In this document: in pieces, positions 35,918-57,640 of the stretch
Position numbering within the stretch: the stretch's first letter is position 1
Layout: every line of letters starts with the position of its first letter
Assembly (NCBI RefSeq): GCF_006861795.1
Contig: NZ_VDGH01000011.1
Location: forward strand, 70,418 to 134,417
DNA length: 64,000 nt
Direction of reading: 5' to 3'
From: Psychrobacillus lasiicapitis
Lineage (GTDB): Bacteria > Bacillota > Bacilli > Bacillales_A > Planococcaceae
The notes under the pieces: generated by a model
Databases searched by the model: none
What the model was told of the DNA's origin: nothing
The model's input: the letters and a program-made list of their open reading frames with translations, nothing else
Translations under genes and position numbers: made by a program

Positions 35918-35967
35918 CAACTATTCCCTCATATTTTACAACTAACTTTCCCTTTACGCCAACTAAA
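35918..35967. repeat. 21-bp-period repeat array, three units
   Basis: CAACTA cores start at 35918, 35939 and 35960, exactly 21 bp apart. On the minus strand each unit is a conserved part like TTTAGTTGGCGTA, GTTAGTTGTAAAA, AATAGTTGTAATA followed by 8 variable bases (AAGGGAAA, TATGAGGG). It lies between the GNAT gene and the HhH gene and is in frame with the latter. Confidence 0.75.
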
Positions 35968-35971
35968 ATCC

Positions 35972-36012
35972 ACCAGTAACAATGACCTTTAAGTCGTTGT
36001 TACTGGTTCTTT
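35972..36012. terminator. Hairpin downstream of the GNAT gene
   Basis: ACCAGTAACAATGAC/GTCGTTGTTACTGGT stem. The plus-strand side has TTCTTTT after it, but the minus-strand side lacks a T-run, so its strength as terminator for the minus-strand gene is doubtful. Confidence 0.5.
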
Positions 36013-36024
36013 TGATAATATTCT

Positions 36025-36528
36025 CTAAAAACGAATACGAAATGCTTTTACGATAATTCCATCATTTGCTGGTTCGAAGTCAAACTGAGGCAACCGTTCA
36101 AAACCTAGATGTTCATACAATTTGATGGCATTTTCCATAAAATCTGCAGTATGAAGACCCATTTCCGAGAAACCATTCTCCTTTGCACGTTTAATACATT
36201 CATTAATGAGCAATGTTGCCACACCTTTTCCTCTAGTTTTAGAAGAGGTAGCAAGCATTCGTAACTCTGGATATCCAAGTTCGTCTTCCAAGAGACCATC
36301 ATATGCTTTTATAGCAGGAGAAAACAAAGCAACACTTCCTAATATTTCTCCATCGTCTTCTACTACTATTCGTTCCACACCAGTTTCAATATCTCCATCC
36401 GATAAGATGGATTTTTTTAAAGCCTGAAAGTGGTCTTCTGGAATTTTTGTTGCATGTTCTTCATATGCAGCTAATCTTAGCTCTCTAATTGTAGAGAGCT
36501 CTGCTGGTACAGCGTCTCGGATAATCAT
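36025..36528 (-). CDS. GNAT family N-acetyltransferase
   Basis: 167 residues. The acetyl-CoA region reads MLATSSKTRGKGVATLLINECIKRAKENGF, and the late LYEHLGFERLPQFDF is typical of GNAT proteins. The N-terminus MIIRDAVPAELSTIRELRLAAYEE is also typical. The acceptor is unknown. It starts 22 bp after the stop of the upstream GST-like gene, so the two may be transcribed together. Confidence 0.88.
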   Translation of the reverse strand: MIIRDAVPAELSTIRELRLAAYEEHATKIPEDHFQALKKSILSDGDIETGVERIVVEDDGEILGSVALFSPAIKAYDGLLEDELGYPELRMLATSSKTRGKGVATLLINECIKRAKENGFSEMGLHTADFMENAIKLYEHLGFERLPQFDFEPANDGIIVKAFRIRF

Positions 36529-36550
36529 AATTTCTCCATCTCCTTACTTC

Positions 36551-37555
36551 TTATTTACTTTCGTGAATGAGAAACTTTTCTTTATTTCCACTTAATTCTT
36601 CGCGGTTATGTACAGAATGGAAGTTAGAAGTATCCGGACCTTTCGGTAAAATATTGAGGCTTTTTTGATCATCGCTCGCGATATGATTAGATAAATGATA
36701 ATGTATTTTAATCGCGTCAAAATCTGTCGTATCCCCAAAACCAGGTGTTTGATATAAATCTCTTAAATACCCCCATAAGTTCGGATAATCCACGATACGA
36801 TTACGATTCGCTTTAAAAGCAGAATAATACGCAACATCAAAGCGGACAAGCGTAGCATACAATCGAACATCGGTATCAGTTATAAAGTCTCCAAATAAGA
36901 AGCGCTTCGTGGCTAAACGTTGTTCCAATTCATCTAATCGTTCAAATAACACATCATACGCTTCTTCATAAGCTTCTTGTGAACGTGCAAATCCACATTT
37001 GTATACACCATTATTCACATCATGGAAGATAACATCACTTAATGCATCGATTTCTTCCCGTAAATGTTTCGGATATAAATCAGGTGCATTTTCTTTATGA
37101 AATGGAGCCCAAGCCGTTTCCAAATGATTAGTTAATCTAAAATAATCGTTATTCACTGCTATTCCTTCTTTAATATCCACCATAACAGGCACAGTTGGTC
37201 TACCCGCATACTCTGGGTCTGCCTTTTTATACACTTCGCTTATATATTGAATACCTAAAACAGGATCTACCCCGTCTATATCTAAAGAAAATTCCCAGTC
37301 TACGCGGTCGATATTAGGACGCATTGGACTGGCTGTACCTAAACTAATGGCATCCTCTAAACCTAGTAAACTTCGAACAATTACCGAGCGATGCGCCCAT
37401 GGACAAACGGCAGCCCATAGAAGACGATAGCGTCCTGCTTCTATCAGAAGTTCATCTGGATTATTTCCAAAGGGGGTATTAAAGTGATTTTTTTGGCGAT
37501 TAAATTTTCCTTTTTCATCCACTTCAGTTGGTGCTTGTTTCTGCGACTTTTCCAT
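36551..37555 (-). CDS. Glutathione S-transferase family protein (Xi/Omega type, YqjG/Ecm4-like)
   Basis: 334 residues. The thioredoxin-fold active site is LLWAAVCPWAHRSVIVRSLLG (Cys in VCPWAH, about residue 51), as in glutathionyl-hydroquinone reductases. The C-terminal helical domain has CGFARSQEAYEEAYDVLFERL and FLFGDFITDTDVRLYATLVRFD. Bacilli usually lack glutathione and use bacillithiol, so the thiol partner is open. ATG 37555 has GAGG 9 nt before it. Confidence 0.88.
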   Translation of the reverse strand: MEKSQKQAPTEVDEKGKFNRQKNHFNTPFGNNPDELLIEAGRYRLLWAAVCPWAHRSVIVRSLLGLEDAISLGTASPMRPNIDRVDWEFSLDIDGVDPVLGIQYISEVYKKADPEYAGRPTVPVMVDIKEGIAVNNDYFRLTNHLETAWAPFHKENAPDLYPKHLREEIDALSDVIFHDVNNGVYKCGFARSQEAYEEAYDVLFERLDELEQRLATKRFLFGDFITDTDVRLYATLVRFDVAYYSAFKANRNRIVDYPNLWGYLRDLYQTPGFGDTTDFDAIKIHYHLSNHIASDDQKSLNILPKGPDTSNFHSVHNREELSGNKEKFLIHESK

Positions 37556-37564
37556 TTTTATCAT

Positions 37565-37913
37565 CCTCTTCTATTTGATATTTTACAAATCCATAGTTTT
37601 CTTCTTGGTTTAATTAAGTTTATGATTTTATTATTTCGAAGTCAAGGTAAAAGAAGTAGTAATTCTCTGCCAACTTCAATGAAAAATTTTAAAGGTAGCT
37701 GTATTTTTCAATCAAATTTCACGACCATTTTATAAAATGAGATTCGGGACGGAAAATAAATATGGGGGAAGTAATTTGAAGATATAAAAAGCGTCTTTAA
37801 ACCATTTTTTTGAGGGTTTTAGTGTAGGAAAAGTAATTGCTTTGAATGATGATTACAATACAAGATTACTATGACCGGGACCGGTATCGAAGGTGTTCAA
37901 AAATCAGCCTAGT
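37565..37913. other. Intergenic stretch beside a broken gene
   Basis: About 350 bp between the GST gene and the Hen1 remnant. I see no gene or repeat. A short open stretch on the plus strand near 37818-37878 (GKVIALNDDYNTRLL then stop) has no ribosome site and no known match. It may be debris from the deletions that damaged hen1. Confidence 0.4.
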
Positions 37914-38548
37914 TTAACAGATACCTTTCCTTCTCCCGAACCAAAACGGTAATTGCTTCGCAAGAATCGGCTGTTGGGTTTCTTCTTGGTGTTCAAAGTG
38001 ATCGTATAATTCCTTGAATCTTAATTCCTTGGGGTGGACATTTCTGAAAGTTTAATATAGCAGGCTGAGCTTTTCTCTTTTATTTGAAATGAATAGTCCG
38101 TTTCTCCAAACTCGATGGCAACCTCATAGCCTAACGGTTCAAAAAGATTGCGAATCTCCTGTTCACTTAACTCCGTTGCCACAGGACCAAAACTAAAATG
38201 GAAAGAAAAAGAGTGCTCTACCCATTTTTCATAAGCTTCTTTTGGCTTGCCATTTAATGCAGTACTCAAAGCAGAACGAATAAGCGAAGTGAAAATACTA
38301 CTCACCGCAAATTCCCTGTCATTTATGTAGTTTGTAATGTCATAAGCACCAGAAGACTGATTGATAAGTGAAAGAGAATCAGTCGTAACAAAGATTGTCA
38401 TCTCCATCTGTTTATCTGTAAATGTAGAAAAAAAGAGCCGTATCGCATGATCTTTTTGGGTTCGCTCGTATAAATTACTTGGAATTTTAGCAAGCAGATG
38501 GGAGAGAACTTGTACATTTTCACCTGTCGCTCTAATCGTTAGTTGCAC
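37914..38548 (-). pseudogene. hen1: Truncated bacterial Hen1 (RNA-repair 3'-terminal 2'-O-methyltransferase)
   Basis: The first 170 or so residues from GTG 38548 match the bacterial Hen1 N-terminal domain: QLTIRATGENVQVLSHLLAK, NLYERTQKDH, YDITNYINDREFAVSSIFTS, STALNGKPKEAYEKWVEH and LFEPLGYEV. The frame then stops at 38021 after KLSEMSTPRN. In the neighbouring frame, the sequence continues as PKELRFKELYDHFEHQEETQ, which belongs about 60-70 residues later in Hen1, and ends at 37914. The methyltransferase domain is missing. So this is an internal deletion plus truncation. No pnkp gene is nearby. Confidence 0.75.
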
Positions 38549-38570
38549 TATATCCACCCTTTCCTGTTTT

Positions 38571-39275
38571 TCATTGTCTATCTAAATGAGAAGGCGTATC
38601 GCGAAGAAGTTGGACAAAAAGCCCATCTCCTTCTAACCATTCAGCGATGAGAATATCTTTATCGCTTGTAATCCCTTTTGCATGAAGCTGACCGGTTAAC
38701 CACACCTCATCAAAACCTAAGTCTTCTATTTCATCCCATAAAACTTTGCCATCTCTTATTAAAGTTACTGGCGCATAAACTGTTTTAGAAACTAGATTGA
38801 GATCCTCTTGAGTTGTTTTTTGATACTTGGATTTCTTTAAAATACTTAACGATCCATTTGCTTCTAAATAACAATATGCGACCTCTCGAATAGAAAAGGT
38901 TTCACTTTGTCTAAGTAAGCTTTGAAGCTGATTCAAATTCATTCGGTTTTTCTTTAATTGTTCTCGGTCCACCACGCCATTTTTTATCAATGCGGATGGT
39001 TTTCCTTCAAATATTCCACGTATAGCTAAAAACTTTTGCCCAAGAAATTCAACGATGAAAAGTAAAATACTCCATAGTGCCATCGTATAAATAATATAAA
39101 ATAACCCTACATCATTATGATACAATCCATTACCAAGTAATTCACCTAATACTATCGCAGCAATGAAAGTAAAAGGGCTTATTTGCTTAATGATTTTCTT
39201 CCCTACAAATTTAACGATTAAAAAAAGAAGAAAAAAACCGACAATCAATTCTATAGTAATATTTAATATGTGCAC
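38571..39275 (-). CDS. DUF421 membrane protein (YetF-like)
   Basis: 234 residues. Three membrane segments at the N-terminus (ELIVGFFLLFLIVKFVGKK, FTFIAAIVLGELLGNG, ALWSILLFIVEFLG) are followed by the cytoplasmic DUF421/YetF domain with KNRMNLNQLQSLLRQSETFS and LIRDGKVLWDEIEDLGFDEVWL. Spore-associated paralogues of this family are common in Bacilli. GTG 39275 gives an N-terminus aligned with YetF, although AAGGA sits only 3 nt before it. A GTG at 39347 would add 24 unlikely residues. Confidence 0.85.
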   Translation of the reverse strand: MHILNITIELIVGFFLLFLIVKFVGKKIIKQISPFTFIAAIVLGELLGNGLYHNDVGLFYIIYTMALWSILLFIVEFLGQKFLAIRGIFEGKPSALIKNGVVDREQLKKNRMNLNQLQSLLRQSETFSIREVAYCYLEANGSLSILKKSKYQKTTQEDLNLVSKTVYAPVTLIRDGKVLWDEIEDLGFDEVWLTGQLHAKGITSDKDILIAEWLEGDGLFVQLLRDTPSHLDRQ

Positions 39276-39313
39276 TTTCCTTACAACCCCGTTCCAGCTA
39301 TTCTTTCGACTAG

Positions 39314-39466
39314 TTATCTCCCAATTGCCGAAGATATAAAACTCCACTGAAGAAACTCAGCGTTACTGGATTGTTTGTCACGAATCCACTTCCATAAAAT
39401 TACTATTACAACTAAACCGGTGATTATTACAACTAAAAGCTCCAGTTTTCCAACTAAACCTTCCAT
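39314..39466 (-). CDS. Possible 50-residue membrane peptide running out of the repeat array
   Basis: An ATG at 39466, inside the 21-bp array, opens a 50-codon frame. It begins MEGLVGKLELLVVIITGLVV, continues as a hydrophobic helix with a basic flank (ILWKWIRDKQ), and stops at 39314, overlapping the upstream part of the DUF421 frame. The ribosome site is poor (AGAGGG 11 nt away). It may be fortuitous. Confidence 0.2.
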   Translation of the reverse strand: MEGLVGKLELLVVIITGLVVIVILWKWIRDKQSSNAEFLQWSFISSAIGR

Positions 39467-39500
39467 TTTTCCAACTAAACCCTCTTGTTTTCCAACTAAA
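39409..39500. repeat. 21-bp-period repeat array, five units
   Basis: CAACTAAA cores start at 39409, 39430, 39451, 39472 and 39493, exactly 21 bp apart. On the minus strand each unit is TTTAGTTGGAAAA (three copies identical) or TTTAGTTGTAATA (two copies), followed by 8 variable bases: CAAGAGGG, ATGGAAGG, CTGGAGCT, ATCACCGG. It lies between the gntP terminator and the DUF421 gene. Confidence 0.9.
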
Positions 39501-39506
39501 AATTTT

Positions 39507-39547
39507 AGAAAAAAATAACCGCCATCCCAAAAGGATAGCGGTTATTT
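39507..39547 (-). terminator. Terminator after the GntP permease gene
   Basis: AAATAACCGCCATCC/GGATAGCGGTTATTT stem, followed on the minus strand by TTTTTCTAAAATTTTT. Confidence 0.88.
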
Positions 39548-39560
39548 CTAAATATGATTC

Positions 39561-41018
39561 TTAAACAAGTCCAGTCAATAGATACACACCAATGACAAAG
39601 AAACATGCTAATGTCTTAATAATCGTAATCGCAAATATATCTTTATATGATTGGCGATGAGTGAGTCCACAAACCATTAGTAATGTAAGAACTGCTCCAT
39701 TATGTGGTAAAGTATCCATCCCACCCGCTGCCATCGCAATGACACGGTGCATAACTTCTAAAGGAATACCGGCAGCATTTGCAGCCTCCACATACTTTTC
39801 TGCCATAATACCTAGACTAAAACTTAATCCACCGGAGCCGGATCCTGTAATACCGGCTAGCGCATTCGTTAACACAGCACCATTGACTAAAGGATGCGTA
39901 AAAGTTGTAGCTAAGAAATTCTGAACGACAGCAAAACCTGGTAAAGCTGAAATAATCCCTCCGAAACCAAACTCGGAAGCGGTATTCATTGTAGCAAGTA
40001 AAGCACCACTTATACCGACACTTAAACTATCCTTGAAACTCAATTTAACTGCATCGAAGTTTAAAGCGATAGCAGTAAAAATCCCTACAAGAAGAGCAAG
40101 CTCCACCGACCAAAGTCCGAGTTGCTGATTGATATTTACAGTTCCATATTGTGCTTGATTAATGCTAGCAAAATCAAATCCATCTGGATACCATTTCGGA
40201 ATATAAGTAGTGAACAACTTATTCATTACTCCGACTAATAGCAGCGGAAGAAAAGCTAACCAATCTTTCACATCTATTTTTGCATTTAACATAGTAGAAC
40301 TAGGGGCTGCCATCGCTTCACTTGTAGCAGCCATTTCGCTAGCAGCCGGTGACTCGGTAATCGCATTTTTTCCAATACCATAATAACCTTCACCGTTCTT
40401 AGCTGCTTTTCGTCGACGACTTTCTAAATAAAACATACCAACTACAAAAATAAACAGTGCACCGATTCCCCCTAGATATGGAGCTGCATAAACGTTCGTA
40501 TCAAAAAAGGTGGTTGGAATAACATTTTGAATCTGTGGCGATCCAGGAATTGCATCCATCGAAAAAGTAAAAGCACTAAATGCAATAGTAGCTGGAATTA
40601 GTCGTTTCGGAATATTCGCTTCACGGAACAACTGATTAGCAAATGGATAAATCGCAAATACGGCTACGAATAAACTTACTCCACTATAAGTTAGAATAGC
40701 TCCCAATATGACGACAGTAAGAATAGCTTGTCTAACTCCAATGAATCGAATAATTACTTTTGCTATTCTTGCCGCGATACCAGACATCTCAATTACTTTA
40801 CCGAAAATCGCCCCAAGTAAGAATACTGGAAAATAGGATTTTACGAAGCCGACCATTTTTTCCATAAAGATATTCGAAAAGAACGGTAAGACATGACTCG
40901 GATCTGTTAAAAACACGGCAAGTAAAGCACATATTGGAGCAATAATAATGACTGAAAATCCACGATAAGCTAAAAACATGAGTAGTCCTAGAGCTAATAG
41001 AATAATAATTAGATCCAT
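39561..41018 (-). CDS. GntP-family organic acid:H+ symporter
   Basis: 485 residues with about 12 membrane segments, GntP/CitMHS-like. Typical parts are ALGLLMFLAYRGFSVIIIAPI at the start, FGKVIEMSGIAARIAK, and GITGSGSGGLSFSLG. Members carry gluconate or other hydroxy/keto acids such as 3-hydroxybutyrate. It lies downstream of the MaoC and carboxylase genes on the same strand, 157 bp from them. Transport of a branched or short acid that feeds the catabolic operon is possible, but this is inference. Confidence 0.87.
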   Translation of the reverse strand: MDLIIILLALGLLMFLAYRGFSVIIIAPICALLAVFLTDPSHVLPFFSNIFMEKMVGFVKSYFPVFLLGAIFGKVIEMSGIAARIAKVIIRFIGVRQAILTVVILGAILTYSGVSLFVAVFAIYPFANQLFREANIPKRLIPATIAFSAFTFSMDAIPGSPQIQNVIPTTFFDTNVYAAPYLGGIGALFIFVVGMFYLESRRRKAAKNGEGYYGIGKNAITESPAASEMAATSEAMAAPSSTMLNAKIDVKDWLAFLPLLLVGVMNKLFTTYIPKWYPDGFDFASINQAQYGTVNINQQLGLWSVELALLVGIFTAIALNFDAVKLSFKDSLSVGISGALLATMNTASEFGFGGIISALPGFAVVQNFLATTFTHPLVNGAVLTNALAGITGSGSGGLSFSLGIMAEKYVEAANAAGIPLEVMHRVIAMAAGGMDTLPHNGAVLTLLMVCGLTHRQSYKDIFAITIIKTLACFFVIGVYLLTGLV

Positions 41019-41175
41019 AAATGTTCTCCTTCTATAGATAAATTTAATAGCAAAGAAAGCGTTAGGAAGGTTTATGAATCTAGAGATAACTCACAGTAAA
41101 TCATATTCCTCTTCAGTTGGAAGCTATTTTCTATTCACCGCTCTGTTATTCTGTCTTCATCCCCTTTTCACTCAT

Positions 41176-41616
41176 TCACTCTATCGTTTTTTGATTCACT
41201 AATAACTTCATTTCAAAAACTGCCACTATTTCGTCCGTTTGTTTCCTAACTTCTTGTAATACCGTCAAAACCCCTTGGTTCGGTCCTTTACTCTTCAAAT
41301 CAATTACTTTCCCTGTAAGATTAATCGTATCTCCAATGAAAGTCGGTGCTGTAAATCTTACGTTATCCATTCCATAGAATGCCACGACAACCCCCGGTTC
41401 AAAATGTACCAATCCCGTTGTAATGGAAAGCACTAGCATTCCATGGGCAATTCGCTGTTTATATTGAGTTTCTTTTGCATATTCAATATTCGTGTGCAAA
41501 GGGAACCAGTCTCCGCTTAAAGCGGAGAACATTACGATATCTGCTTCTGTTATCGTTCTTCCTTTCGACTCCCAAACATCCCCAAGTTGGTAATCTTCAA
41601 AGTATTTATCGAACAT
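41176..41616 (-). CDS. MaoC-like (R)-enoyl-CoA hydratase
   Basis: 146 residues, one hot-dog fold. The hydratase-2 motif appears as ITEADIVMFSALSGDWFPLHTNIEYA (Asp and His of the active site) with RIAHGMLVLSITTGLV. It would hydrate a trans-2-enoyl-CoA. It is the last gene of the catabolic operon, about 75 bp after the carboxyltransferase gene. Confidence 0.88.
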   Translation of the reverse strand: MFDKYFEDYQLGDVWESKGRTITEADIVMFSALSGDWFPLHTNIEYAKETQYKQRIAHGMLVLSITTGLVHFEPGVVVAFYGMDNVRFTAPTFIGDTINLTGKVIDLKSKGPNQGVLTVLQEVRKQTDEIVAVFEMKLLVNQKTIE

Positions 41617-41691
41617 TTCAATCTCCCCTTTGTTTATAAATACTACTTGAATAATTATGGCTCAGCAGAATGTTTTATCTGCTCGGCCAAC

Positions 41692-43230
41692 TTAAACTGG
41701 ATACACCCCATGCTTACGATCAGTGAAAACTAAATACTTAGACATGTAAACGTCCAAACGTGATGCAAGTTCCTCGCGCAAACGATTCGGTTCAACCACA
41801 TCATCAATAATTAAATCTGAAGCTAGACGATAAATATCAATGTCCTCACGATATTCTTCACGCTTTTCAGCAATGAACGAAGCTCTCTCTTCTTCGGGAA
41901 GGGAAGCAATTTTATTTGCATATACTGCATTCACTGCAGCTTCAGGTCCCATTACCGCAATGGAAGCGGTTGGAAGTGCAATACAGCAATCTGGTTCAAA
42001 TGCTGGGCCTGCCATCGCATATAACCCAGCGCCATAAGCTTTGCGTACGATTACTGTCATTTTAGGAACCGTAGCTTCACTCATTGCTGAAATCATCTTA
42101 GCACCATGTCTAATAATGCCCGCTCGTTCTACATTTGTCCCAATCATAAAGCCTGGCACGTCCGCAAGGAACAATAAAGGAATATGATAAGCATCACAAA
42201 GATTAATGAATTTCGCAGCTTTATCTGCACTATCATGGAATAGGACTCCGCCTTTAACACGCGGTTGATTTGCAATTATTCCAACTGGTTGTCCATTGAT
42301 ACGTCCAAGACAAGTAATAAGTTCAGGTGCAAAAAGCTTCTTGATTTCACAAATAGAATCTTCGTCAATAAGACGTTCGATCAGTTGATACATATCAAAT
42401 GGTGCGTTTTGATTTTTCGGTATTAACTGCTCAATGCTTTTTTCAAAGAAAGCTGGTTCTTTCACTTCTGCTTTAGCTGGCTTTTCCGTATAGTTTTCTG
42501 GGAAATACGTTAAGTATTTTCGAGCGTACGCGATCGCTTCTTCTTCACTTGGAACGAGGACGTCTCCACAGCCAGAAACGGAACAATGCATTTTCGCTCC
42601 ACCCATTTCTTCAAGAGACACTTTTTCACCGATAACCATTTCCGCCATACGAGGTGAGCCTAAATACATGGAAGCATTGCCGTCCACCATTACAACGACG
42701 TCACAGAATGCAGGAATATATGCTCCGCCAGCCGCTGATGGTCCAAATAGAAGACAAATTTGCGGTACTTTTCCTGACATTTTAACTTGGTTATAGAAAA
42801 TTCGTCCTGCTCCTCTACGACCAGGGAACATTTCTAGTTGGTCTGTTATGCGAGCACCTGCAGAGTCAACAAGATACAACATTGGACAGCGTAGCTTTTC
42901 AGCTGTTTCCTGAATGCGGATAATTTTTTCTACAGTACGTTGTCCCCAAGAACCTGCCTTAATAGTAGAATCATTAGCCATCACACAAACCGTACGACCA
43001 TGAATTTTACCAATCCCGGTAACTACTCCATCCGCTGGAAGATCACCCGCTAATACATTCGCAAACATACCATCTTCTGCTTTTAAACCATCATCAAACA
43101 GTAAGTTCAATCTATCCCGAACAAACATTTTCGCTTGCTCTTGGTTTTTCTTATGATACTTTTCCTGTCCACCTTGCAAGATGGCATCTTTTTTGATCTG
43201 ATAATCTGTTTGTGAAACTGTCGACGTCAT
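41692..43230 (-). CDS. yngE: Acyl-CoA carboxylase carboxyltransferase subunit (methylcrotonyl-CoA type)
   Basis: 512 residues. Two crotonase-like halves: the N-terminal half has LVDSAGARITDQLEMFPGRR and GPSAAGGAYIPAFCD, the C-terminal half LFLADVPGFMIGTNVERAGI and KAYGAGLYAMAGPAFEPD. These are typical of MccB/PccB. With a biotin carboxylase, a separate biotin carrier and HMG-CoA lyase in the same operon, 3-methylcrotonyl-CoA is the likely substrate (leucine degradation). It ends 12 bp... before the next gene in the run begins downstream at MaoC. Confidence 0.93.
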   Translation of the reverse strand: MTSTVSQTDYQIKKDAILQGGQEKYHKKNQEQAKMFVRDRLNLLFDDGLKAEDGMFANVLAGDLPADGVVTGIGKIHGRTVCVMANDSTIKAGSWGQRTVEKIIRIQETAEKLRCPMLYLVDSAGARITDQLEMFPGRRGAGRIFYNQVKMSGKVPQICLLFGPSAAGGAYIPAFCDVVVMVDGNASMYLGSPRMAEMVIGEKVSLEEMGGAKMHCSVSGCGDVLVPSEEEAIAYARKYLTYFPENYTEKPAKAEVKEPAFFEKSIEQLIPKNQNAPFDMYQLIERLIDEDSICEIKKLFAPELITCLGRINGQPVGIIANQPRVKGGVLFHDSADKAAKFINLCDAYHIPLLFLADVPGFMIGTNVERAGIIRHGAKMISAMSEATVPKMTVIVRKAYGAGLYAMAGPAFEPDCCIALPTASIAVMGPEAAVNAVYANKIASLPEEERASFIAEKREEYREDIDIYRLASDLIIDDVVEPNRLREELASRLDVYMSKYLVFTDRKHGVYPV

Positions 43231-43242
43231 GTTGTTGCCTCC

Positions 43243-48948: not shown

Positions 48949-48982
48949 TGAAAATTCCTCCTTTCGTTTCTCCTCTATATAT

Positions 48983-49166: not shown

Positions 49167-49175
49167 TTTATATAT

Positions 49176-50537
49176 TTAAATAATATTATATTTTTTAATC
49201 TTCTCGTATATGGTCGAATTGCTAATCCCAAGTGCTTCTGCCGCCATGTTTTTATCGAATTTACAGTTCATTAGCATTTTTTCTATTTCTTTTTTTTCCG
49301 TTTCTTCTATTATTTCTTTTAACGTTCTGTTTTTATTTTTACCCAGATCTCTTATAATATATTCCGGCAGGTCTTCGATTTCCAATATATTCTCGTTTGC
49401 TAAATGCACACCTGCATCTATTACATTCTCCAATTCTCTTATGTTTCCAGGCCATTCATATTTGTTTAGAAGAGCGTAGACATCATCATGTATGGAATTG
49501 ACTCGTTTGCCAATCCGTGCTTTCGACCTTTCAAAAAAATGGTGGATTAGAAGCAAGATATCCTCTGTTCTTTCCCTTAAAGGAGGACTCACTAATTGAA
49601 TTGCGTTTATCCTATAATATAGGTCTTCTCGAAATTCCCTGTTTTCTATCATTTTTTCTAATGGTCGATTAGTTGCCGCAATTACACGAACATTCACCTT
49701 TTTTGGTTGGGCCGCCCCTACAGGTTCATATTCTCTCTCCTGCAAGACTCTTAGTAATTTGACTTGCATATGCTGGGGCATGTCACCAATTTCATCTAGA
49801 AAAATAGTTCCACCTTCTGCACTTTGAAACTTTCCTACTTTCCCACCTTTTTTAGCACCCGTAAAAGCTCCCTCTTCATAGCCGAACAGTTCAGACTCGA
49901 TTAGATGCTCCGGTATCGACCCACAATTCACGCTAACAAATGGTTTAGTACTACGGGGACTCAGTTGATGAATACTTTGTGCGATTATTTCCTTCCCAGT
50001 TCCACTTTCACCCCTTATTAATACAGAAATATCTCCGCCGGCCACTCTTTTCACACGCTCTTTTAACTCATTCATCGCATGCGAGTTGCCAATCAAGTCA
50101 TGTAAAGAATATCTTGCTCCATTTCCTTGATCACCCTCTGGTGTATACAAATTGTTCCGTGCTAACAGGTCTTTAATATGGCTATTCATTTTCTTCCAAT
50201 CATCTAAATCTCTAAAAATAATCGTTCCTATTGCACCGATGATTTCTTTGTCATCGAAAATGGGGATACGATTTGTAATGACAAAGCTCCCTCTTAGAAA
50301 CTGTAGATCTCCCATCTCTGATTTTCCTGTTTGAACAACAAGGTGCAATCTTGTATTTTCAATATAATCAACAATATATCCCCCGATTAAGTCTTCTCTT
50401 TTCACTTCCAAAAACTCGCAATACTTGTTGCTAATATATTGTATTTTTCCATTATTATCGATAATGATTGTCCCATAGTTTGCATTTTCAAATACGACAT
50501 CGAGTAATTTATGATTGAACAATTGTCCAGATACCAT
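49176..50537 (-). CDS. Sigma-54-dependent enhancer-binding regulator with PAS domain
   Basis: 453 residues. An N-terminal PAS domain (about 10-110; NYGTIIIDNNGKIQYIS) is followed by the AAA+ domain (about 145-375) with Walker A RGESGTGKEI, the sigma-54 contact loop EGAFTGAKKGG, Walker B GTIFLDEIGDM and the arginine region REDLYYRINAI. A Fis-type HTH lies at the end (MAAEALGISNSTIYEKIKKY). It should activate the leucine/acyl-CoA operon from its sigma-54 promoter in response to a ligand or metabolite. ATG 50537 has GGGGAAA upstream. The gene has its own strong terminator. Confidence 0.93.
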   Translation of the reverse strand: MVSGQLFNHKLLDVVFENANYGTIIIDNNGKIQYISNKYCEFLEVKREDLIGGYIVDYIENTRLHLVVQTGKSEMGDLQFLRGSFVITNRIPIFDDKEIIGAIGTIIFRDLDDWKKMNSHIKDLLARNNLYTPEGDQGNGARYSLHDLIGNSHAMNELKERVKRVAGGDISVLIRGESGTGKEIIAQSIHQLSPRSTKPFVSVNCGSIPEHLIESELFGYEEGAFTGAKKGGKVGKFQSAEGGTIFLDEIGDMPQHMQVKLLRVLQEREYEPVGAAQPKKVNVRVIAATNRPLEKMIENREFREDLYYRINAIQLVSPPLRERTEDILLLIHHFFERSKARIGKRVNSIHDDVYALLNKYEWPGNIRELENVIDAGVHLANENILEIEDLPEYIIRDLGKNKNRTLKEIIEETEKKEIEKMLMNCKFDKNMAAEALGISNSTIYEKIKKYNII

Positions 50538-50680
50538 ATTTATTTCCCCTTTCTCCCTCATATCCCCTTACATACCCCTACCTTATATGATAACGGAATT
50601 TTCAAGAAACAGGTGTTTCATTTTTAGTTTGGAGAAACTTTAATAAAAAAACTGCCATTGTAAACGGAGAGTTCATACAA

Positions 50681-51098
50681 TATAGGGATACTGCGCGGTA
50701 GATAAAATTGCTCTGTTAGTGTCTGCTATGATTCTCACTGTAGTCGTACGCTTTCCGCCGGGTGAGCGATGAGCCATCCCCACCGCTTAGGGCGTCGTTG
50801 GAATGTCTCATTAGCCCACTCATCCGGCAGGAGTCGACGCCAGCAGTGAATATCAATAGATATATCTTATTTATTCAGTATCGACTTGTTAAAAACAAAA
50901 TCATAAACAGTTTTTGTACTGTATAAAACCAATAAATGGCTAAGGGCAATCAATCAGTCATTGTAAGCAACCAATACTACTCTAAAAGCAACTAAATCTG
51001 TATAAGAGCAATCAATTTACTAGTGAAAGCAACCATTTATTAAAATAACAAGTTTCCTTAGAGTGAGAAACTGATATTTACCACACAGTTTCCCTATA
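50681..51098. repeat. Repeat element D with inverted ends and internal 21-bp array
   Basis: Left end TATAGGGATACTGCGCGGTA and right end TTACCACACAGTTTCCCTATA are inverted copies of the family end. The left half carries the GTACGCTTTCCGCCGGGTGAGCG unit (cut: GTACGCTTTCCGCC, GGGTGAGCGATGAGCC) and the GGCAGGAGTCGACGCCAGC stretch. The right half holds the five-unit 21-bp array. There is no open frame worth calling. Bases 50538-50680 and 51099-51186 hold nothing else recognised. Confidence 0.7.
50946..51036. repeat. 21-bp-period array inside element D, five units
   Basis: GCAATCAA, GCAACCAA, GCAACTAA, GCAATCAA and GCAACCAT start at 50946, 50967, 50988, 51008 and 51029 (spacings 21, 21, 20, 21). 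On the minus strand the pattern is TTGGTTGCTTTNA plus about 8 variable bases, the same plan as the arrays at 35.9 and 39.4 kb. Confidence 0.88.
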
Positions 51099-51186
51099 CA
51101 GTGAAGTATTTGACTGGAACACATTATTCCTATAATGCGCTCGTACAAGCAAAACAATTTAAACTTTTTCTTCCATAGAACATAAA

Positions 51187-51221
51187 AAAACAGGATAAAG
51201 ATTATTAATCTTACCTGTTTT
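51187..51221 (-). terminator. Terminator after the DUF1456 gene
   Basis: AACAGGATAAAGATT pairs with AATCTTACCTGTT with small mismatches; on the minus strand TTTTTTTATG follows. Confidence 0.75.
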
Positions 51222-51230
51222 TCCGCTTGC

Positions 51231-51737
51231 TTATTCTCGATGTTTCACAGCTAAACCTCTTAAAAATTTTCGCGCAAAATTATCACCGCATACTTTATAA
51301 TTTCGATGTCCTTCTTTACGTAAAATAGCTCCTAACTCACCCTTTGAAACGACAATGCCACCTTCATCTAATATTGCTATCATATCTTCGGTTGTTAATT
51401 GAAGCGCTACTTTCAATTTCTTAAGTAGCATGTTATTAGCGTTTCTTTCGGGAGGTGCGGGATTTTCAGGTTGACCGGGTTTTGGATCTTGTTTACCTCG
51501 TTTAAAAGTAATAAAACCATTTAAAAAGGAATCCAACATCTTATGTGTACATTTTATTTGATCATCGGTTTCTTCCACATCTATGTCATCATAGAATTCA
51601 TCTTTTGATTTTGTCAGTATTTTTGATAGTTCCTCTTTCGATACTTCTATACCACCAAGATTAAATATCTCCATCATATCTTTGTCTTTTATATCTAATG
51701 CATACCTTAGTCGAATTAATATATCGTTGTTATCCAT
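51231..51737 (-). CDS. DUF1456 family protein (YehS-like)
   Basis: 168 residues made of two related modules of about 65 residues: NDILIRLRYALDIKDKDMMEIF...GGIEVSKEELSKIL and NMLLKKLKVALQLTTEDMIAIL...GGIVVSKGELGAIL, joined by a proline-rich linker (PKPGQPENPAPPE). The C-terminal NYKVCGDNFARKFLRGL is typical of the family. Function is unknown. Single gene. Confidence 0.88.
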   Translation of the reverse strand: MDNNDILIRLRYALDIKDKDMMEIFNLGGIEVSKEELSKILTKSKDEFYDDIDVEETDDQIKCTHKMLDSFLNGFITFKRGKQDPKPGQPENPAPPERNANNMLLKKLKVALQLTTEDMIAILDEGGIVVSKGELGAILRKEGHRNYKVCGDNFARKFLRGLAVKHRE

Positions 51738-51959
51738 TTAAAAGCCTCCTACTATTATGACCAGTCATCTCATGTTGTGTTGCTTGCTGAGTTGTTAGTT
51801 AATAAATTATAGCAGAGAAACTGTAAATACAGCTATTAAAACAGCTGAAACATGAATACTGCAATCAGCGAGTAGTTCTTCCAACCTCTACGGATGAAGC
51901 ACTTTTGATAATTAGCATATACTGTATTACTTCAACAAAATATAACGGAGGTGTTTATT

Positions 51960-52454
51960 CTGATTCATACTGTTCAACGAGGTGAAACACTGAGTCAAAT
52001 AGCCAGAGACTATCGTGCACCTCTATCCAAAATCATTAGTGCTAATCAATCCATTAATCCGAATGTACTTTTCATTGGTCAATCCATTGTTATACCTGGC
52101 TATCCAGACCCGAATACGCTTCCATATCGTATGGAGGTTTCCATAAACAATCGTCGACTACGCTTACTAAGAGACGGTATTTTACAAAAAGAGTACCCAA
52201 TTGCTGTTGGAAGAATAGTGTACAATACACCTGTAGGAGATTTTATCATTATAAATAAAGCGCCTAATCCTGGTGGACCATTCGGCACAATGTGGATGAG
52301 TTTATCAAAAGAGCACTACGGGATCCACGGCACCAATGATCCCAGTTCCATTGGTAAAGCAGTCTCACGTGGTTGTATTCGCATGCACAATAAAGACGTG
52401 GAGGAATTAGCACGTATTATTCCAATAGGAACTCCGGTTTCTATCCGGCCATAA
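51960..52454 (+). CDS. ykuD: L,D-transpeptidase with LysM domain (YkuD-like), probable CTG start
   Basis: 165 residues. LysM (about 1-45; [20 protein letters not shown]) then a YkuD catalytic domain with [20 protein letters not shown] and the Cys-containing SRGCIRMHN. It cross-links or trims peptidoglycan, as YkuD does in spores. Alignment with YkuD puts the start at CTG 51960, 8 nt after GGAGG. The nearest ordinary start, GTG 51951, contains the last G of that ribosome site and would be too close to it. ATT 51963 is another possibility. Confidence 0.85.
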
Positions 52455-52458
52455 TATA

Positions 52459-52504
52459 AAAAAACTGGAGGAGAAAATTATTCATCTTCTCCTCCAGTTT
52501 TTTA
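52459..52504. terminator. Bidirectional terminator between ykuD-like gene and phoU
   Basis: AAACTGGAGGAGAA/TTCTCCTCCAGTTT perfect 14-bp stem flanked by A-run and T-run. Confidence 0.9.
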
Positions 52505-52520
52505 TTTAGTTTCCTAAGTG

Positions 52521-53180
52521 TTAGGAGTTGAAATCGTATATTTGACCTTTTATCAAATATGCTGTACTTTCAGCGATATTCGTTATATGGTCTGCTGTTC
52601 TTTCAAGAAAACGATTTACAAATAATAATTGTACAAGCTGATTGGTCTCTTCTGGATGTTCACTTAAATAAGCTGTCAGTTTCTTATATGTTTCGCCACT
52701 ATATTGATCCACTTCCTCCTCTAAGTCACCAACTTCTTTTGCAAAGAGGATATTTTCCTCTAAAAAAGATTGTAGTGCTTTTCGGAGCATCTCAATTGAT
52801 ATTTCTTTCATCTTCTCTAGATGCGTAATCTCCAGTAAAGATGTAGTATTACCAATCTTAATAGTTGCTTTTGCAATGTTCACTGCAAAATCCGCAACTC
52901 GTTCAATTTCGGATGAAATTTTAAGTACCCCGATAATTTCCCTTAAATCTCTTGAAACAGGTGCTTCTTTAGCCATAAGCCATATGGCGAACTGGTTAAT
53001 ATCCATTTCAAGATTATCAATAGCAGTATCTCCCTCAATAACTTTTAATGCAATCTCCACATCTTGTGTTTTTAAAGCAGTAAAAGCTCTTTCTAGAGCA
53101 ACAACTGATAGTTCAGCCATTTCAGTGATTTTACTTTTTAATTCCTCTAAATTATTCTCGAAGTTTACACGGACTCCCAT
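52521..53180 (-). CDS. phoU: Phosphate signalling regulator PhoU
   Basis: 219 residues, two three-helix PhoU repeats. Marks: ELKSKITEMAELSVVALERAF, DLREIIGVLKISSEIERVADFAVNIAK and NRFLERTADHITNIAEST. It tunes PstSCAB uptake and Pho signalling. It follows pstB by 12 bp and closes the operon. Many Bacillus pst operons have two pstB genes and lack phoU, so this layout differs from B. subtilis. Confidence 0.93.
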   Translation of the reverse strand: MGVRVNFENNLEELKSKITEMAELSVVALERAFTALKTQDVEIALKVIEGDTAIDNLEMDINQFAIWLMAKEAPVSRDLREIIGVLKISSEIERVADFAVNIAKATIKIGNTTSLLEITHLEKMKEISIEMLRKALQSFLEENILFAKEVGDLEEEVDQYSGETYKKLTAYLSEHPEETNQLVQLLFVNRFLERTADHITNIAESTAYLIKGQIYDFNS

Positions 53181-53192
53181 TTGCTACCTCCA

Positions 53193-53963
53193 TTATCCAA
53201 ATCGGCCTGTTACATAATCTTCTGTTCGTTGATCTTGTGGTGTAGAGAAAATATTATCGGTATCATCATATTCCACAACTTCTCCATTTAAGAAAAAGGC
53301 TGTTTTATCAGATACTCTTGCAGCTTGTTGCATGTTATGTGTAACAATGACAATTGTGTAATCTTTTTTCATGTTGGTTATTAGTTCTTCTATTTTTAAC
53401 GTAGAAATTGGGTCTAATGCAGATGTAGGCTCGTCCATTAGTATAATATCCGGCTTCATCGCAATAGCACGAGCAATACACACACGTTGTTGCTGGCCGC
53501 CAGACAAACCTAGTGCTGATGTTTTAAGACGATCTTGTACTTCATCCCAAATTGCTGCGCTGCGTAGACTCTCTTCCACAATTTTATTTAATTCTTTTTT
53601 ATTTTTAATGCCTTGCATTCTTGGTCCGTAGGCAACATTGTCATAAATACTCATTGGGAATAAATTTGGTTTCTGAAATACCATTCCTACTTTTGTTCTT
53701 AGTTTGATCACATCATTCGTTTTATAAATGTCTTCATGATCAATGACTATATCACCTGTAATTTTCACTCCGTCTATTAAATCATTCATCCGATTTAATG
53801 TTCGTAAAAAAGTCGATTTACCACAGCCTGAAGGGCCGATTAAAGCAGTTACCTCTTTTTCAAGGATAGCAAGATCGACTCCGAATAAAGCTTGTTTCTC
53901 TCCATAAAATAAATTCAAATCTCTTACATTAATGATCGATGTACCTTCTTTACGTTGCTCCAT
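53193..53963 (-). CDS. pstB: Phosphate ABC transporter ATPase PstB
   Basis: 256 residues. Walker [14 protein letters not shown]-loop [20 protein letters not shown], signature [12 protein letters not shown], Walker [15 protein letters not shown] and H-loop VTHNMQQA. It powers high-affinity phosphate uptake with PstCA. The C-terminal [21 protein letters not shown] is typical of PstB. A gap of 82 bp separates it from pstA. Confidence 0.95.
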
Positions 53964-54045
53964 CTGCTAAAATACCTTCCCTACTTGATTTTTTTTGGTC
54001 ACTAGCTCAATAAAATCTAAGACTCCATCACTCTTTAACATACAT

Positions 54046-54873
54046 TTATTTATTGGTTGCTTTGTTAAATTTTTTCGAGATATAAGTCGCTGAAAGATTG
54101 ATCGCTAAAATAATTACTATTAAGACAATACCAACTGCTGCCGCAAGCTCAATGTCACCTGACTCTTGTGTTACTAAATAAGAGTGAACAGTTAAAGTCC
54201 TAGCTGATGATAGAATACTCTCTGGCATCGCTGCTACAGTCCCAGCAGTTAAGAATATGGCAGCTGATTCTCCCACAATTCGGCCAACGGAAAGGATAAT
54301 ACCAGATAAAATTCCCGGCATGGAACTCGGTAAAATTACTTTATATAATGTTTGTAGCTTTGTTGTTCCAAGGGCTAAAGAACCTTCACGATACGAACGT
54401 GGTACTGTTTTTAATGCTTCCTCTGTTGTTCGTATGATTACAGGCAATACGATAATCGTTAAGGTTAAGGAAGCAGCTAATATCGACATACCTAATTTTA
54501 ATGTTGTTACAAAGAATACCGCTCCAAACAAACCATAAATGATAGAAGGAATTCCTGTTAAACTTTCTGTTGCAAAGCGTATTAGTCTAACTAACCGTCC
54601 TTGTTTAGCATATTCTTGCAAATAAACAGCTGCTAATATTCCAATAGGTGTTGCAATAACCAATGAGATGAGCACTGTATATATAGTTGTGATAATCATT
54701 GGCCAAATACCGCCATCACCAGTTGGAGAATAATCTCCAAAGATGAAATTAAAGCTTATTAAACCAATTCCTTTGTAAAAGATAAATCCAACGATCATCA
54801 CGAGGATGGCAACCGATAAGAATGCTGATAACCATAATAGAGCACGTAACAAGCTATCTTTAAAATGTCTCAT
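54046..54873 (-). CDS. pstA: Phosphate ABC transporter permease PstA
   Basis: 275 residues, six membrane segments. EAA loop TVPRSYREGSLALGTTKLQTLYKV, and the PstA-typical IGILAAVYLQEYAKQGRLVRLIRF. ATG 54873 follows the pstC stop by 1 bp, and its GGGAGG ribosome site lies in the end of pstC, so translation is coupled. Confidence 0.93.
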   Translation of the reverse strand: MRHFKDSLLRALLWLSAFLSVAILVMIVGFIFYKGIGLISFNFIFGDYSPTGDGGIWPMIITTIYTVLISLVIATPIGILAAVYLQEYAKQGRLVRLIRFATESLTGIPSIIYGLFGAVFFVTTLKLGMSILAASLTLTIIVLPVIIRTTEEALKTVPRSYREGSLALGTTKLQTLYKVILPSSMPGILSGIILSVGRIVGESAAIFLTAGTVAAMPESILSSARTLTVHSYLVTQESGDIELAAAVGIVLIVIILAINLSATYISKKFNKATNK

Positions 54874-54874
54874 C

Positions 54875-55789
54875 TTAGTTACCTCCCTTCGCACTTATTT
54901 TTGCCAGCACAAAATTCAAAATTAATATAAATGAGAATAAAACAATTCCTGTAGCAAATAACATTTCTTGATGTGTACCAAACGCATAACCCATTTCTAA
55001 TGCGATGTTTGTCGTTAGTGGACGAACACTATCCGTTAGGCTAGTTGGAACGATTAAACTATTTCCAGCTACCAATATTACTGCCATCGTCTCCCCTATT
55101 GCTCGTCCTAAACCTAATACGATTGCCGTCATAATACCTGATTTAGCCGCTGGTACAATAACTTTAAAGATGGTACCAATTTGTGATACTCCTAAAGCAT
55201 ATGAGCCTTCACGATATGTTTGGGGTACTGCTCGAATTGCCGTCTCTGCCACAGTGACAATAGTTGGTAACATCATGATCGCCAACACAAGAATCACAGC
55301 TATCAAGCTTTGTCCTTTAACTAAACCAAACGTATTTTGTAAAAATGGAACGATAATTGCAAGTCCAAACACACCATATAATACGGACGGTATACCTGCT
55401 AGCAACTGAATTGCCGGTGAAATAATTTTAGCTAACCTTTTAGAGGCAATTTCCGCCAAGAAAATAGCTGTAAATAAGCCAATAGGAACACCAATGATTA
55501 ATGCTCCAATTGTTGCAAAAATAGATGCAACAATCATTGGGAATATACCAAATTTATCTTCACTAGGTACCCAATCAGTACCAAAAATAAAGTTTATAAA
55601 ACTATAGCCTTCAGCTACAAAGGGATGAGCTCCTTTATAAAATACAAATCCAATTATTAACAATAAAGTTATGACGGAGAGAAGTGCACAAATCAAGAAA
55701 ATTCTTGAAGATAGCTTCTCTAGCATATACTTCCTTTTATTTGCTTTACCGATTTCTACGGTTTGCTTGTTAGTTGTTGGGATAGACAC
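54875..55789 (-). CDS. pstC: Phosphate ABC transporter permease PstC
   Basis: 304 residues, six membrane segments. GIFPMIVASIFATIGALIIG, the EAA loop AVPQTYREGSYALGVSQIGTIFKVI and GRAIGETMAVILVAGN are typical of PstC. It is the partner of PstA in the phosphate channel and lies 56 bp after pstS. Confidence 0.94.
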   Translation of the reverse strand: MSIPTTNKQTVEIGKANKRKYMLEKLSSRIFLICALLSVITLLLIIGFVFYKGAHPFVAEGYSFINFIFGTDWVPSEDKFGIFPMIVASIFATIGALIIGVPIGLFTAIFLAEIASKRLAKIISPAIQLLAGIPSVLYGVFGLAIIVPFLQNTFGLVKGQSLIAVILVLAIMMLPTIVTVAETAIRAVPQTYREGSYALGVSQIGTIFKVIVPAAKSGIMTAIVLGLGRAIGETMAVILVAGNSLIVPTSLTDSVRPLTTNIALEMGYAFGTHQEMLFATGIVLFSFILILNFVLAKISAKGGN

Positions 55790-55845
55790 CTTATACCTCC
55801 AAAATTAAGTCAAAATTATGTTGTTGTCTTCCTTTTAATGGTTAT

Positions 55846-56685
55846 TTATTTTACTCGGATAGCTCCTGCTTCTTCCGCAATGAGCTGTCCGTCTTCACTT
55901 AAAATAAAATCTATAAATCGTTGTCCAGCATCTGTTAATTGTCCTTCTTTATAGACAAACAAGAAAGGTCTAGATAAGCTGTATTTTTCTTGCAAAACAT
56001 TCGCTGCATTCGCCTCTACACCATTAATATCAATGGTTGAAATCGTTTCATCTATATATTCAAATGATATAAAACCAACAGCATGTTTATTGTTCGCAAC
56101 GGTTGTTTTAATATTCCCATTACCACTTGCGATAATTGCGTTTCTTATTAACTCACCCGAGCTGTAGTCAACAATTTCTTGGAATGCATCACGCGAACCC
56201 GACCCATCCTCACGAGAGACAACTACGATTTCCATGTCATCTCCACCTAGTTCACTCCAGTTCGTTACTTCACCTGTAAAAATCTGTTTAACTTGCTCCA
56301 TCGTAAGATCTTTTACTTTGTTAGTTGGATGAGTCACTACTACAATGCCATCGTAAGCAATAACAACCTCATTCAAACCACTCGCTATTTCCTCTTCTTT
56401 TAAATCCCGGGAGGACATCCCAATCTCCGACACACCGCTAATTGCATTAGTAATTCCAGCAGAAGAACCAATTTGATTTATCTCAATATTTGTATTATCT
56501 GTCTCTGAGTATTTCGCTGCTAACTTCTCCGCTAGTGGTCCTACAGATGTAGATCCTGAAATAGATACTGTAGCACCACTTCCACCGTCTGCCCCTGTTG
56601 AATCATTATTATCTGAACATGCTGATAGGATTGTGAGTATAGCAACTATTGATAACGCCAATTTTGTATGTTTCCACTTGATCAT
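55846..56685 (-). CDS. pstS: Phosphate-binding lipoprotein PstS
   Basis: 279 residues. Lipobox TILSACSD, Cys 23. Phosphate-binding segments are ISGSTSVGPLAEKLAAKY, VVTHPTN and SREDGSGSRDAFQEI. It captures phosphate outside the membrane. It is the first gene of the operon, behind a PHO box. Confidence 0.95.
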   Translation of the reverse strand: MIKWKHTKLALSIVAILTILSACSDNNDSTGADGGSGATVSISGSTSVGPLAEKLAAKYSETDNTNIEINQIGSSAGITNAISGVSEIGMSSRDLKEEEIASGLNEVVIAYDGIVVVTHPTNKVKDLTMEQVKQIFTGEVTNWSELGGDDMEIVVVSREDGSGSRDAFQEIVDYSSGELIRNAIIASGNGNIKTTVANNKHAVGFISFEYIDETISTIDINGVEANAANVLQEKYSLSRPFLFVYKEGQLTDAGQRFIDFILSEDGQLIAEEAGAIRVK

Positions 56686-56756
56686 TTCATACCTCCAAGA
56701 AATAGGTTAAAAACTTTCTATGTCGTAATTTGTCTAATAGTAGAATAAATGCACAG

Positions 56757-56795
56757 TGTAAATTTTGTTCATGTTATTTGTAAAGGTTTTGTAAA
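56757..56795 (-). promoter_or_regulatory. PHO box (PhoP-binding repeats) upstream of pstS
   Basis: On the minus strand the units TTTACA, TTTACA, CATGAA and TTTACA occur at a strict 11-bp spacing (56790, 56779, 56768, 56757 on the plus strand). Three fit TTHACA exactly. The spacing and location, about 75 bp before the pstS start, fit PhoP~P activation under phosphate starvation. Confidence 0.82.
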
Positions 56796-56960
56796 TATTA
56801 TTAAAAACAACTTGTTTAATGTTAAGTATTTTTAAAATATTGTGAACGATAGATATATTAGGATGAGTTTAAATCTTTCATATATGAATTACCATTTATT
56901 GACAAAAGCCTTCTAACTATTAAGCTCAACAAGAACAAAAGTGCTAAATACGATAAAATG

Positions 56961-57640
56961 AATAACGCACATTATAGGGAAACTGCGACGTAAGAAATTT
57001 TATTAGGTGACCAATAGGAATTTGGCACGGCGCGCTTCGCTTTCTGAGGGCGAGCAACGAGCCGCACTAAATCCCTCCAATTAAGTAGTTGCAGAATAAG
57101 AATTTCCAGAAATAGATAAGGGCAACCAAACAGCAGTGAAAGCAACCAAATTACCCCTGAGAGCAACCAATTATTCATAAAACAAGTTAACTTGGAGTGA
57201 GACGCAAAGAATAATGGCGCATTATTGGGGATTGCTTTACAAAAAGCATCTACTTTGTCGGCTTTGTCGTGTTCAGGGGCTAGTTTATCGCAGTCACAGT
57301 GGATATTGTCGCAGTACACCATTTATTGGATTTACCCAGTTGAGAAACTGTTTAATAGTTGGTTTTTAGCAAGCCGATAATGAAAAAACAAGCAGTTATA
57401 ATTGATTTTCGCTCCTAGCGTCGACTCCTATGTAGGCCAACAGGACGTTGGTTTCAAAGGCGTTGCCACACGATGTGGTGCTCGTAGCCTTTGTTCCTTG
57501 GGCTAATGAGCCATTCCAACGACGCCCAAAGCGGCGGGAATGGCTCATCGCTCACCCCACGGAAAGCGTACGACTGCAGTGAAAATCATAGCGGTCACCT
57601 AATAGAACTTTCTACGCTGTATTTTCCCTATACCACGATT
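56961..57640. repeat. Repeat element E with inverted ends, mini-hairpins and 21-bp array
   Basis: Left end AATAACGCACATTATAGGG then AAACTGCG; right end TACGCTGTATTTTCCCTATA is a diverged inverted copy. The left part has the 21-bp array. The right part (57437-57640) closely matches copy A at 1-213, including CCAAC/GTTGG and CCAC/GTGG mini-hairpins. A second end-like motif GCGCATTATTGGGGA at 57216 suggests two elements joined or one rearranged. The long minus-strand frame at 56972-57322 is not considered a gene. Confidence 0.7.
57122..57170. repeat. 21-bp-period array inside element E, three units
   Basis: GCAACCAA starts at 57122, 57142 and 57163 (spacings 20 and 21). Minus-strand units are TTGGTTGCTCTCA, TTGGTTGCTTTCA and TTGGTTGCCCTTA with 7-8 variable bases between (GGGGTAAT, CTGCTGT). 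Confidence 0.85.

Follow-up and report, generated by a model that had tools for sequence, protein, structure and literature searches.

What are the short directional DNA repeats that recur every 21 bp, or two helical turns, near gene ends in Psychrobacillus lasiicapitis, and what could read them? The question is raised by a stretch of 64,000 nucleotides of this species (contig NZ_VDGH01000011.1, positions 70,418 to 134,417), here called the window, in which an earlier note, made from the letters alone, had pointed out four dispersed arrays of such repeats. Our analysis suggests that the arrays are phased sites at transcription-unit ends, recognized by DNA-binding proteins that act cooperatively and are specific to a lineage, a reading to which we give a probability of roughly 0.45. 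The units are in phase, their cores are constrained, the arrays have a preferred position and, in the family that we call A, a polarity relative to genes; spelling differs between lineages as dialects do, and different cores occupy common junctions.

All four arrays were found again in their places on the minus strand, two belonging to family A and two to family B. A fifth array, of family C and absent from the earlier note, adjoins the last B array on the plus strand.

35915..35966, minus strand: family A array of 3 units, gaps 21 and 21 bp (pattern match and sequence reading)
39406..39499, minus strand: family A array of 5 units, four gaps of 21 bp (also flagged by a periodicity detector, z 9.9 at period 21)
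50943..51036, minus strand: family B array of 5 units, gaps 21, 20, 21 and 21 bp (pattern match and sequence reading)
50929..50939, minus strand: tail of this B array, CCATTTATTGG (sequence reading; tail enrichment computed)
57119..57170, minus strand: family B array of 3 units, gaps 21 and 20 bp (pattern match and sequence reading)
about 57263..57329, plus strand: family C array of 3 units, core TTTGTCGTGTTC, with CCATTTATTGG at its end (read by eye)

Phased units and their families

The unit of family A consists of TTTAGTTGKAAWW and 8 spacer bases, and only TTTAGTTGKAAWW is conserved, the remaining positions carrying at most 0.30 bit (29 arrays, 122 units). The layout of 13 conserved and 8 variable bases that had been described thus holds for A, whereas the B unit, AWTTGGTTGCTYTCA and about 7 further bases of little information, is nearer to 14 plus 7 (40 arrays, 163 units). 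These figures come from a census of arrays with at least 3 units in 56 fetched regions and the window, in which 68 of the 69 A and B arrays had 3–5 units and one had 6; two-unit arrays are also present. Spacing followed the same division. Core-to-core distances of up to 90 bp in A were exactly 21 in 90 of 99 cases in the genome of the window and, in stretches from other species, in 162 of 170; in B they were 21 in 55 of 93, 20 in 17 of 93 and 42 in 13. A strict 21-bp period therefore describes A well (20-bp gaps in 1/93) and B less well (19/123).

A genome-wide pattern search, as the earlier note had proposed, was made in the window's own genome (4.49 Mb, 28 contigs) and returned 91 two-unit matches for A against 1 for the reversed pattern, and 69 for B against 2; a few of the B matches resemble coding DNA in our reading. 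The three-unit A pattern was found in 46 stretches of a named genome collection, all from Psychrobacillus, the nearest named carriers of the arrays (records nearest the window's genome were perhaps excluded). A viral collection gave 0 matches to the three-unit A and G patterns, G being a further family taken up below, and 38 candidate stretches for a looser two-unit B pattern.

Phasing was also looked for without any motif, using a detector of 4 units at periods 15–33 in noncoding DNA. It was applied to 33 regions (the window, 13 from four species without A and 19 of other genera), a scan that did not include the G022 region and in which two regions were of short length. At z>=5.5, seven matches had period 21, one had period 20 and none lay elsewhere between 15 and 33; at z>=5 there were eight at period 21 and one each at 18, 20 and 24. 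Three rounds of shuffling the 33 regions (unmasked, z>=5) produced 0 matches at period 21 and 16 at others. The arrays are thus far above chance, and do not show the shuffled-genome rate that the earlier note had named as refuting its proposal. In 67 ortholog loci, fetched with four proteins, 28 matches had period 21, two had period 33 and none had any other.

The cores found in this way differ in sequence. They include CAAGTAAA, TCTCTCTCGTATA and CACATAACCC in genome G004, GTCGCTAA in G019 and AATAATCGCCA in G027, while the window's own genome also holds C, E and F cores (E and F on a looser column count) and periodicity scans flag C elsewhere, at loci L122, L138 and L155. In our reading, the main distinction between B (TTGGTTGCTYTCA) and G (TTTACTTGCTCTC) is a change of GG to AC, and a centre [CG][TG][TC]G is common to most cores, with no clear fit for M and CACATAACCC. 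The earlier note's idea of distinct sequence families sharing one layout thus applies to ten or more core families, with period 21 in almost all of them, a lower bound since the motif-free scan was limited to regions. No period-21 match was given by the detector in the regions of G007, G012 and G015. In other genera of the family, 20 regions were scanned, of which L230 (two matches), L237 and L252 showed period 21 and L238 showed period 20; 19 regions from other Bacilli families had no match at period 21 and one at 17. The L238 array, at 14689 in genome G029 of a sister genus, has nearly identical units. A 33-bp minisatellite, also of nearly identical units and unlike the 21-bp arrays, lies upstream of DUF1456 in L155 (G011) from about 1069.

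A repeat of 21 bp could also be a 7-codon element, as the earlier note had considered; the heptapeptides would be LVGKxxx and LVAFxxx. The LV frame is indeed open in 22 of 29 A arrays, against 12.7 expected from shuffled spacers, and in 19 of 40 B arrays against 14.2. This excess is mild, however, and every other openable A frame is raised as well (16, 22 and 18 against 10.8, 16.0 and 11.5), while in the LV frame the amino acid is altered at those core positions that vary (K in A, Y in B). Together with the 20-bp gaps of B and the period of 20 in the sister genus, this leaves a coding element hardly credible.

Constrained cores, gene ends and lineage dialects

That the variable bases differ in every unit, as the earlier note had it, proved right. 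Spacers are as unlike within arrays as between them, with identities of 0.337 within and 0.355 between arrays for A and 0.314 and 0.329 for B. Because identity is no higher within arrays, young tandem duplication is ruled out, and the arrays do not behave as a minisatellite with a variable number of tandem repeats. Spacers are partly common by unit index, with identities in B of 0.392 for the same index and 0.311 for different ones and, in an effect weaker in kind, 0.404 and 0.341 in A. The sharing of variable 8-mers, which the earlier note had named as a sign against its proposal, is therefore present weakly in both families.

Comparison of orthologous arrays from different species revealed differences at 48 of 1016 core positions, 156 of 561 spacer positions and 709 of 3865 flank positions, in 24 pairs of which both members had been chosen as array carriers (totals from the 22 pairs above 0.7 identity). 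When an array in the second genome was not required, orthologous A arrays differed at 27/354 core (7.6%), 62/204 spacer (30%) and 341/1678 flank positions (20%). These totals represent 7 of 8 pairs and exclude the valS pair with G011, in which the array has been lost (7 of 24 core positions different, 31 gapped). Spacers thus change more quickly than the flanking DNA, part of which consists of terminators and gene ends, and the phase is retained while whole units are gained or lost.

These data bear on the possibility that the arrays are selfish or mobile intergenic repeats, similar to BOX elements or miniature inverted-repeat transposable elements, with an internal 21-bp structure, that have spread by transposition or gene conversion and are tolerated past terminators with no host function. 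Family B has several features of this kind. Its copies have a common leader and tail and partly unit-specific spacers, its counts range from 0 to 257 across 19 genomes, 4 of 35 B loci (L112, L121, L128 and L137) are within 300 bp of a Bacillaceae-1 RNA, and genome G016 has no B at the DUF1456 junction. Whole arrays have also been copied locally in tandem. The earlier note had placed two arrays in mobile-like elements, which fits B, by the common leader and tail and by one array in a mosaic stretch with such an RNA. Against this explanation, A spacers are unrelated between arrays (0.355), so that the A arrays did not arise by recent copying, conservation is far higher in cores than in spacers and flanks, A holds its places across species, and an entirely different core may occupy the same junction. 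We consider it rather unlikely that the arrays as a whole are mobile repeats.

The RNA in question is the sole Rfam match above gathering score in the window at 35000-58000, and it lies beside the arrays and not on them:

57437..57503, minus strand: Bacillaceae-1 RNA (RF01690), E 4.8e-9, in the same mosaic stretch and outside any array (Rfam)

Some B and C arrays have a Bacillaceae-1 RNA about 300 bp away or closer, in one mosaic stretch with them. In the A loci scanned for RNA families (18 of 21), two such RNAs were present, each >1.5 kb from the array. No inverted repeats of at least 14 bp were found around one B array (one region). Local tandem duplication of whole A arrays with their flanks was observed in L093, L094, L096, L076 and L197, with periods of roughly 140–225 bp.

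Arrays in the window were observed close to terminator-like hairpins of the genes upstream of them:

35973..36006, minus strand: hairpin of the upstream GNAT gene (36025-36528), abutting the A array (hairpin read from the sequence; gene by Pfam)
39513..39547, minus strand: hairpin of the upstream GntP-like gene (39561-41018), abutting the A array (sequence reading; Pfam below the curated cut-off)
51184..51222, minus strand: hairpin of the upstream DUF1456 gene (51231-51737) (hairpin read from the sequence; gene by Pfam)

Position was analyzed more widely with neighbouring arrays merged, small open reading frames overlapping arrays ignored and genes called by reading-frame length only, and a class could be assigned to 22 of 23 A and 35 of 37 B arrays. 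A same-strand gene was upstream of 20 of the 22 A arrays; the array started 40–79 bp past its stop codon in 14 of these 20, and a terminator hairpin came immediately before the array in many of them. Between tandem genes, A was co-directional with transcription in 10/11 cases. Convergent gaps were over-represented, holding 20 of 57 A and B arrays against 16/109 in the background, while divergent gaps held 2/57 against 22/109. Short inverted repeats CCA/TGG or GGAT/ATCC were present in the tails of 8/29 A and 17/40 B arrays, compared with 0.5 (A) and 0.7 (B) in shuffled tails and 1 (A) and 0 (B) in leaders. Perfect inverted repeats of at least 5 bp, taken generally, were similarly frequent in the tails and leaders of A (14 and 12 of 29) and numbered 13 and 4 of 40 in B; only the CCA/TGG and GGAT/ATCC types set tails apart. 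At one locus (L055, 2667-3694), about 1 kb of DNA that is extra in comparison with L088, a close relative, separates gene and array and sits exactly at the junction of terminator and A array, with flanks 96–97% identical. Elsewhere in the window, an open reading frame of 178 amino acids at 38021-38557 (minus strand) matches Hen1_L (PF12623), the ligase-Pnkp-associating region of an RNA-repair protein.

Genome-wide A, B, G and L counts differ by lineage, like dialects. The counts are of two-unit matches on both strands in 19 genomes of the genus, include local tandem copies and are not array numbers. A had 8–82 matches in 11 genomes and 0 in 8. G had 211, 78, 42, 40 and 2 (G008, G004, G006, G007 and G014) and 0 in 14, and L had 72, 60, 11 and 8 (G012, G018, G001 and G002), 1–4 in four others and 0 in 11. 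For B the counts were 257, 196, 58, 52, 19, 9 and 6 in seven genomes, all of them with A as well, and 0 in the remaining 12. Reversed patterns gave 0 to 4. Outside the genus, 13 of the other genomes in a set of 250 had A matches, four of one genus with 5–7 and the rest with 1 or 2; a looser A pattern matched 41 of 61 genomes, outside the genus mostly at control level, and the stricter one was used for counts. Among the A matches listed, all 16 of G013 have TAGTTGTAA where most of those of G014 have TAGTTGGAA. In a tree of leuS and valS, in which 7 of 16 inner forks are weak, G001, G012 and G018 group together (100/100) and are joined by G002 at 85/80, and the six species with core K at the valS junction form one clade (100/100).

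At that junction 13 of 19 genomes have an array, with four different cores:

valS junction, core A: G000, G016, G013
valS junction, core K: G004, G005, G006, G007, G008, G014
valS junction, core L: G001, G012, G018
valS junction, core M: G010

The detector flagged ten loci here at period 21, and three genomes (G016, G006, G007) were assigned by eye; in G012 the detector flagged another array further on, and the L array itself is from the pattern listing. A, K and L are on the same strand and M is not orientable. The G003 array appears by eye to have decayed, and G009 is too close to a contig end to read. The leuS junction has arrays in 7/19 genomes, all on the pabA strand:

leuS junction: A in G000, G009, G011, G013 and G016; G in G008; L-like in G001

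At the DUF1456 junction, 3/19 genomes have arrays, B in G000, C in G011 and D in G014. The GntP-like gene is present in 5/19 genomes, and the A array beside it persists in G016 and G009, has decayed in G011 and is missing from G007.

One explanation of the dialects is that the arrays are a species watermark, words read during DNA exchange in the manner of uptake sequences. Spelling that is lineage-specific on the species tree and copies dispersed near gene ends are consistent with this, and there is a precedent in the DNA uptake word of Neisseriaceae, which occurs in dialects (PMC3630211). Several array families within one genome argue against it, as does the phasing of the units. Uptake words are single, short and far more numerous, and we know of no such system in Bacillota. 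A watermark is, in our view, improbable.

A possible protein reader

An RNA element was ruled out by the Rfam result for the arrays in the window and by a fold test on four arrays, which gave z values of -1.0, 0.4, 1.3 and 2.2 relative to shuffles, none better by more than 1 standard deviation. The two-turn phase, constraint on cores only and this lack of an RNA fold favour sites for a cooperative DNA-binding protein, and of the functions offered in the earlier note, a protein laid along one DNA face is the best fit. About 3–6 copies of one directional core, one per two helical turns, would place all sites on one face of the DNA. A sequence-specific protein would bind cooperatively along the cores, head to tail, and the complex may mark or seal the end of the transcription unit, possibly by blocking read-through or convergent transcription, or by serving as a point of nucleoid organisation. 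Gene-end positions suggest the boundary role, and different spellings at one junction across lineages suggest sites that follow a changing reader. With core spelling varying by lineage across dozens of sites, any change in the reader would have to be matched by its sites. As a possible alternative to a changing reader, an array at a favoured place may have been replaced by one of another kind.

Several observations weigh against such protein sites. No binding protein was identified for the array cores, and the spacing of A is stricter than helical phase alone requires. Core conservation could reflect gene conversion between arrays instead of selection. Family B in part resembles a mobile mosaic repeat, its polarity is not clear (co-directional in 14/24 tandem gene pairs), and the DUF1456 of G016, which lacks the B array, is 99% identical. 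Arrays have been lost in some species, so that none is needed at a given place: none was seen at the valS junction in G002, G011, G015 and G017, and 12/19 genomes have none at leuS and 16/19 none at DUF1456. G015 alone of the 19 genomes is without A, B, G and L.

The phase itself could serve another purpose, if the arrays were docking or wrapping sites for a topological or nucleoid enzyme (gyrase-like, as with REP/BIME, discussed below) for which only phased bendability matters. The location past terminators, where positive supercoils collect, is suited to this, as is the exchange of cores without loss of phase. Cores that are sequence-constrained and common genome-wide within a lineage are difficult to reconcile with it, and some are G+C-rich without A-tracts. 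We give this explanation little credence.

Returning to phased protein sites, we tentatively suggest that the arrays may represent an undescribed Planococcaceae signal class, in which phased arrays at transcription-unit ends are read by cooperative DNA-binding proteins of a family whose specificity shifts rapidly. Such a shift would be followed by the many arrays of that reader being rewritten in concert, so that lineages would have dialects of their own at genomic places that are partly the same, and dialects could coexist in a genome. No earlier description of such arrays was among the matches listed in one open-access library. Sites that stay in place and in phase although their sequence is rewritten from lineage to lineage would imply that a genome-wide signal and its reader have evolved together. 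The reader would thereby be made findable, through a search for a gene that changes with dialect, and the arrays would allow direct testing of the way in which bacteria seal off or organise DNA between convergent genes.

Comparison with known systems

The arrays do not have the repeat geometry of clustered regularly interspaced short palindromic repeats (CRISPR), their cores being 11–14 bp, their spacers 7–10 bp and their units mostly 3–5, compared with identical repeats of ~24–40 bp and similarly long spacers in that class. They are closer to plasmid iterons at Rep3-type origins, which are likewise head-to-tail direct repeats of 3–6 units at 21–22 bp, and the iteron trait of phased direct repeats at about two turns is present. 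In 30 Rep3 plasmid loci of the same family, the detector gave 35 matches, 15 at period 21 and 13 at 22 (unmasked, some coding), which raises the possibility that the arrays are relics of, or decoys for, plasmid replication initiators. Iterons have a rep gene next to them and units that are close to identical throughout, whereas here many arrays are present per chromosome with random spacers. The Pfam matches of ten window genes, mostly array neighbours, included no Rep gene. Rep3, the only initiator family tested, was found in 21 of 151 genomes searched and in none of the genus (17 genus genomes listed with zero), and a plasmid collection gave one weak partial match to a window array (E 0.5). 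An iteron origin is accordingly very improbable.

Repetitive extragenic palindromic (REP) units and bacterial interspersed mosaic elements (BIME) are, like the arrays, intergenic repeats at transcription-unit ends. REP units are palindromic, whereas the logos of the array cores are directional and the cores phased, so the arrays are not units of this type. BOX elements of pneumococcus are modular intergenic repeats with a repeated middle module and are similar in that respect, but their modules are longer and identical in tandem, in contrast to units of 21 bp whose spacers are free. LytTR (AgrA-type) double sites are also short direct repeats about 21 bp apart and have a GTT centre; they comprise two sites at promoters, whereas the arrays have 3–6 at gene ends and several cores lack GTT.

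Uptake sequences differ from the phased arrays in being single words. The dialects of Neisseriaceae (PMC3630211) share with the arrays dispersed words and a lineage-dependent spelling. Co-evolution of the kind proposed here is known for uptake words, and in Psychrobacillus it would take a phased, multi-site form at gene ends.

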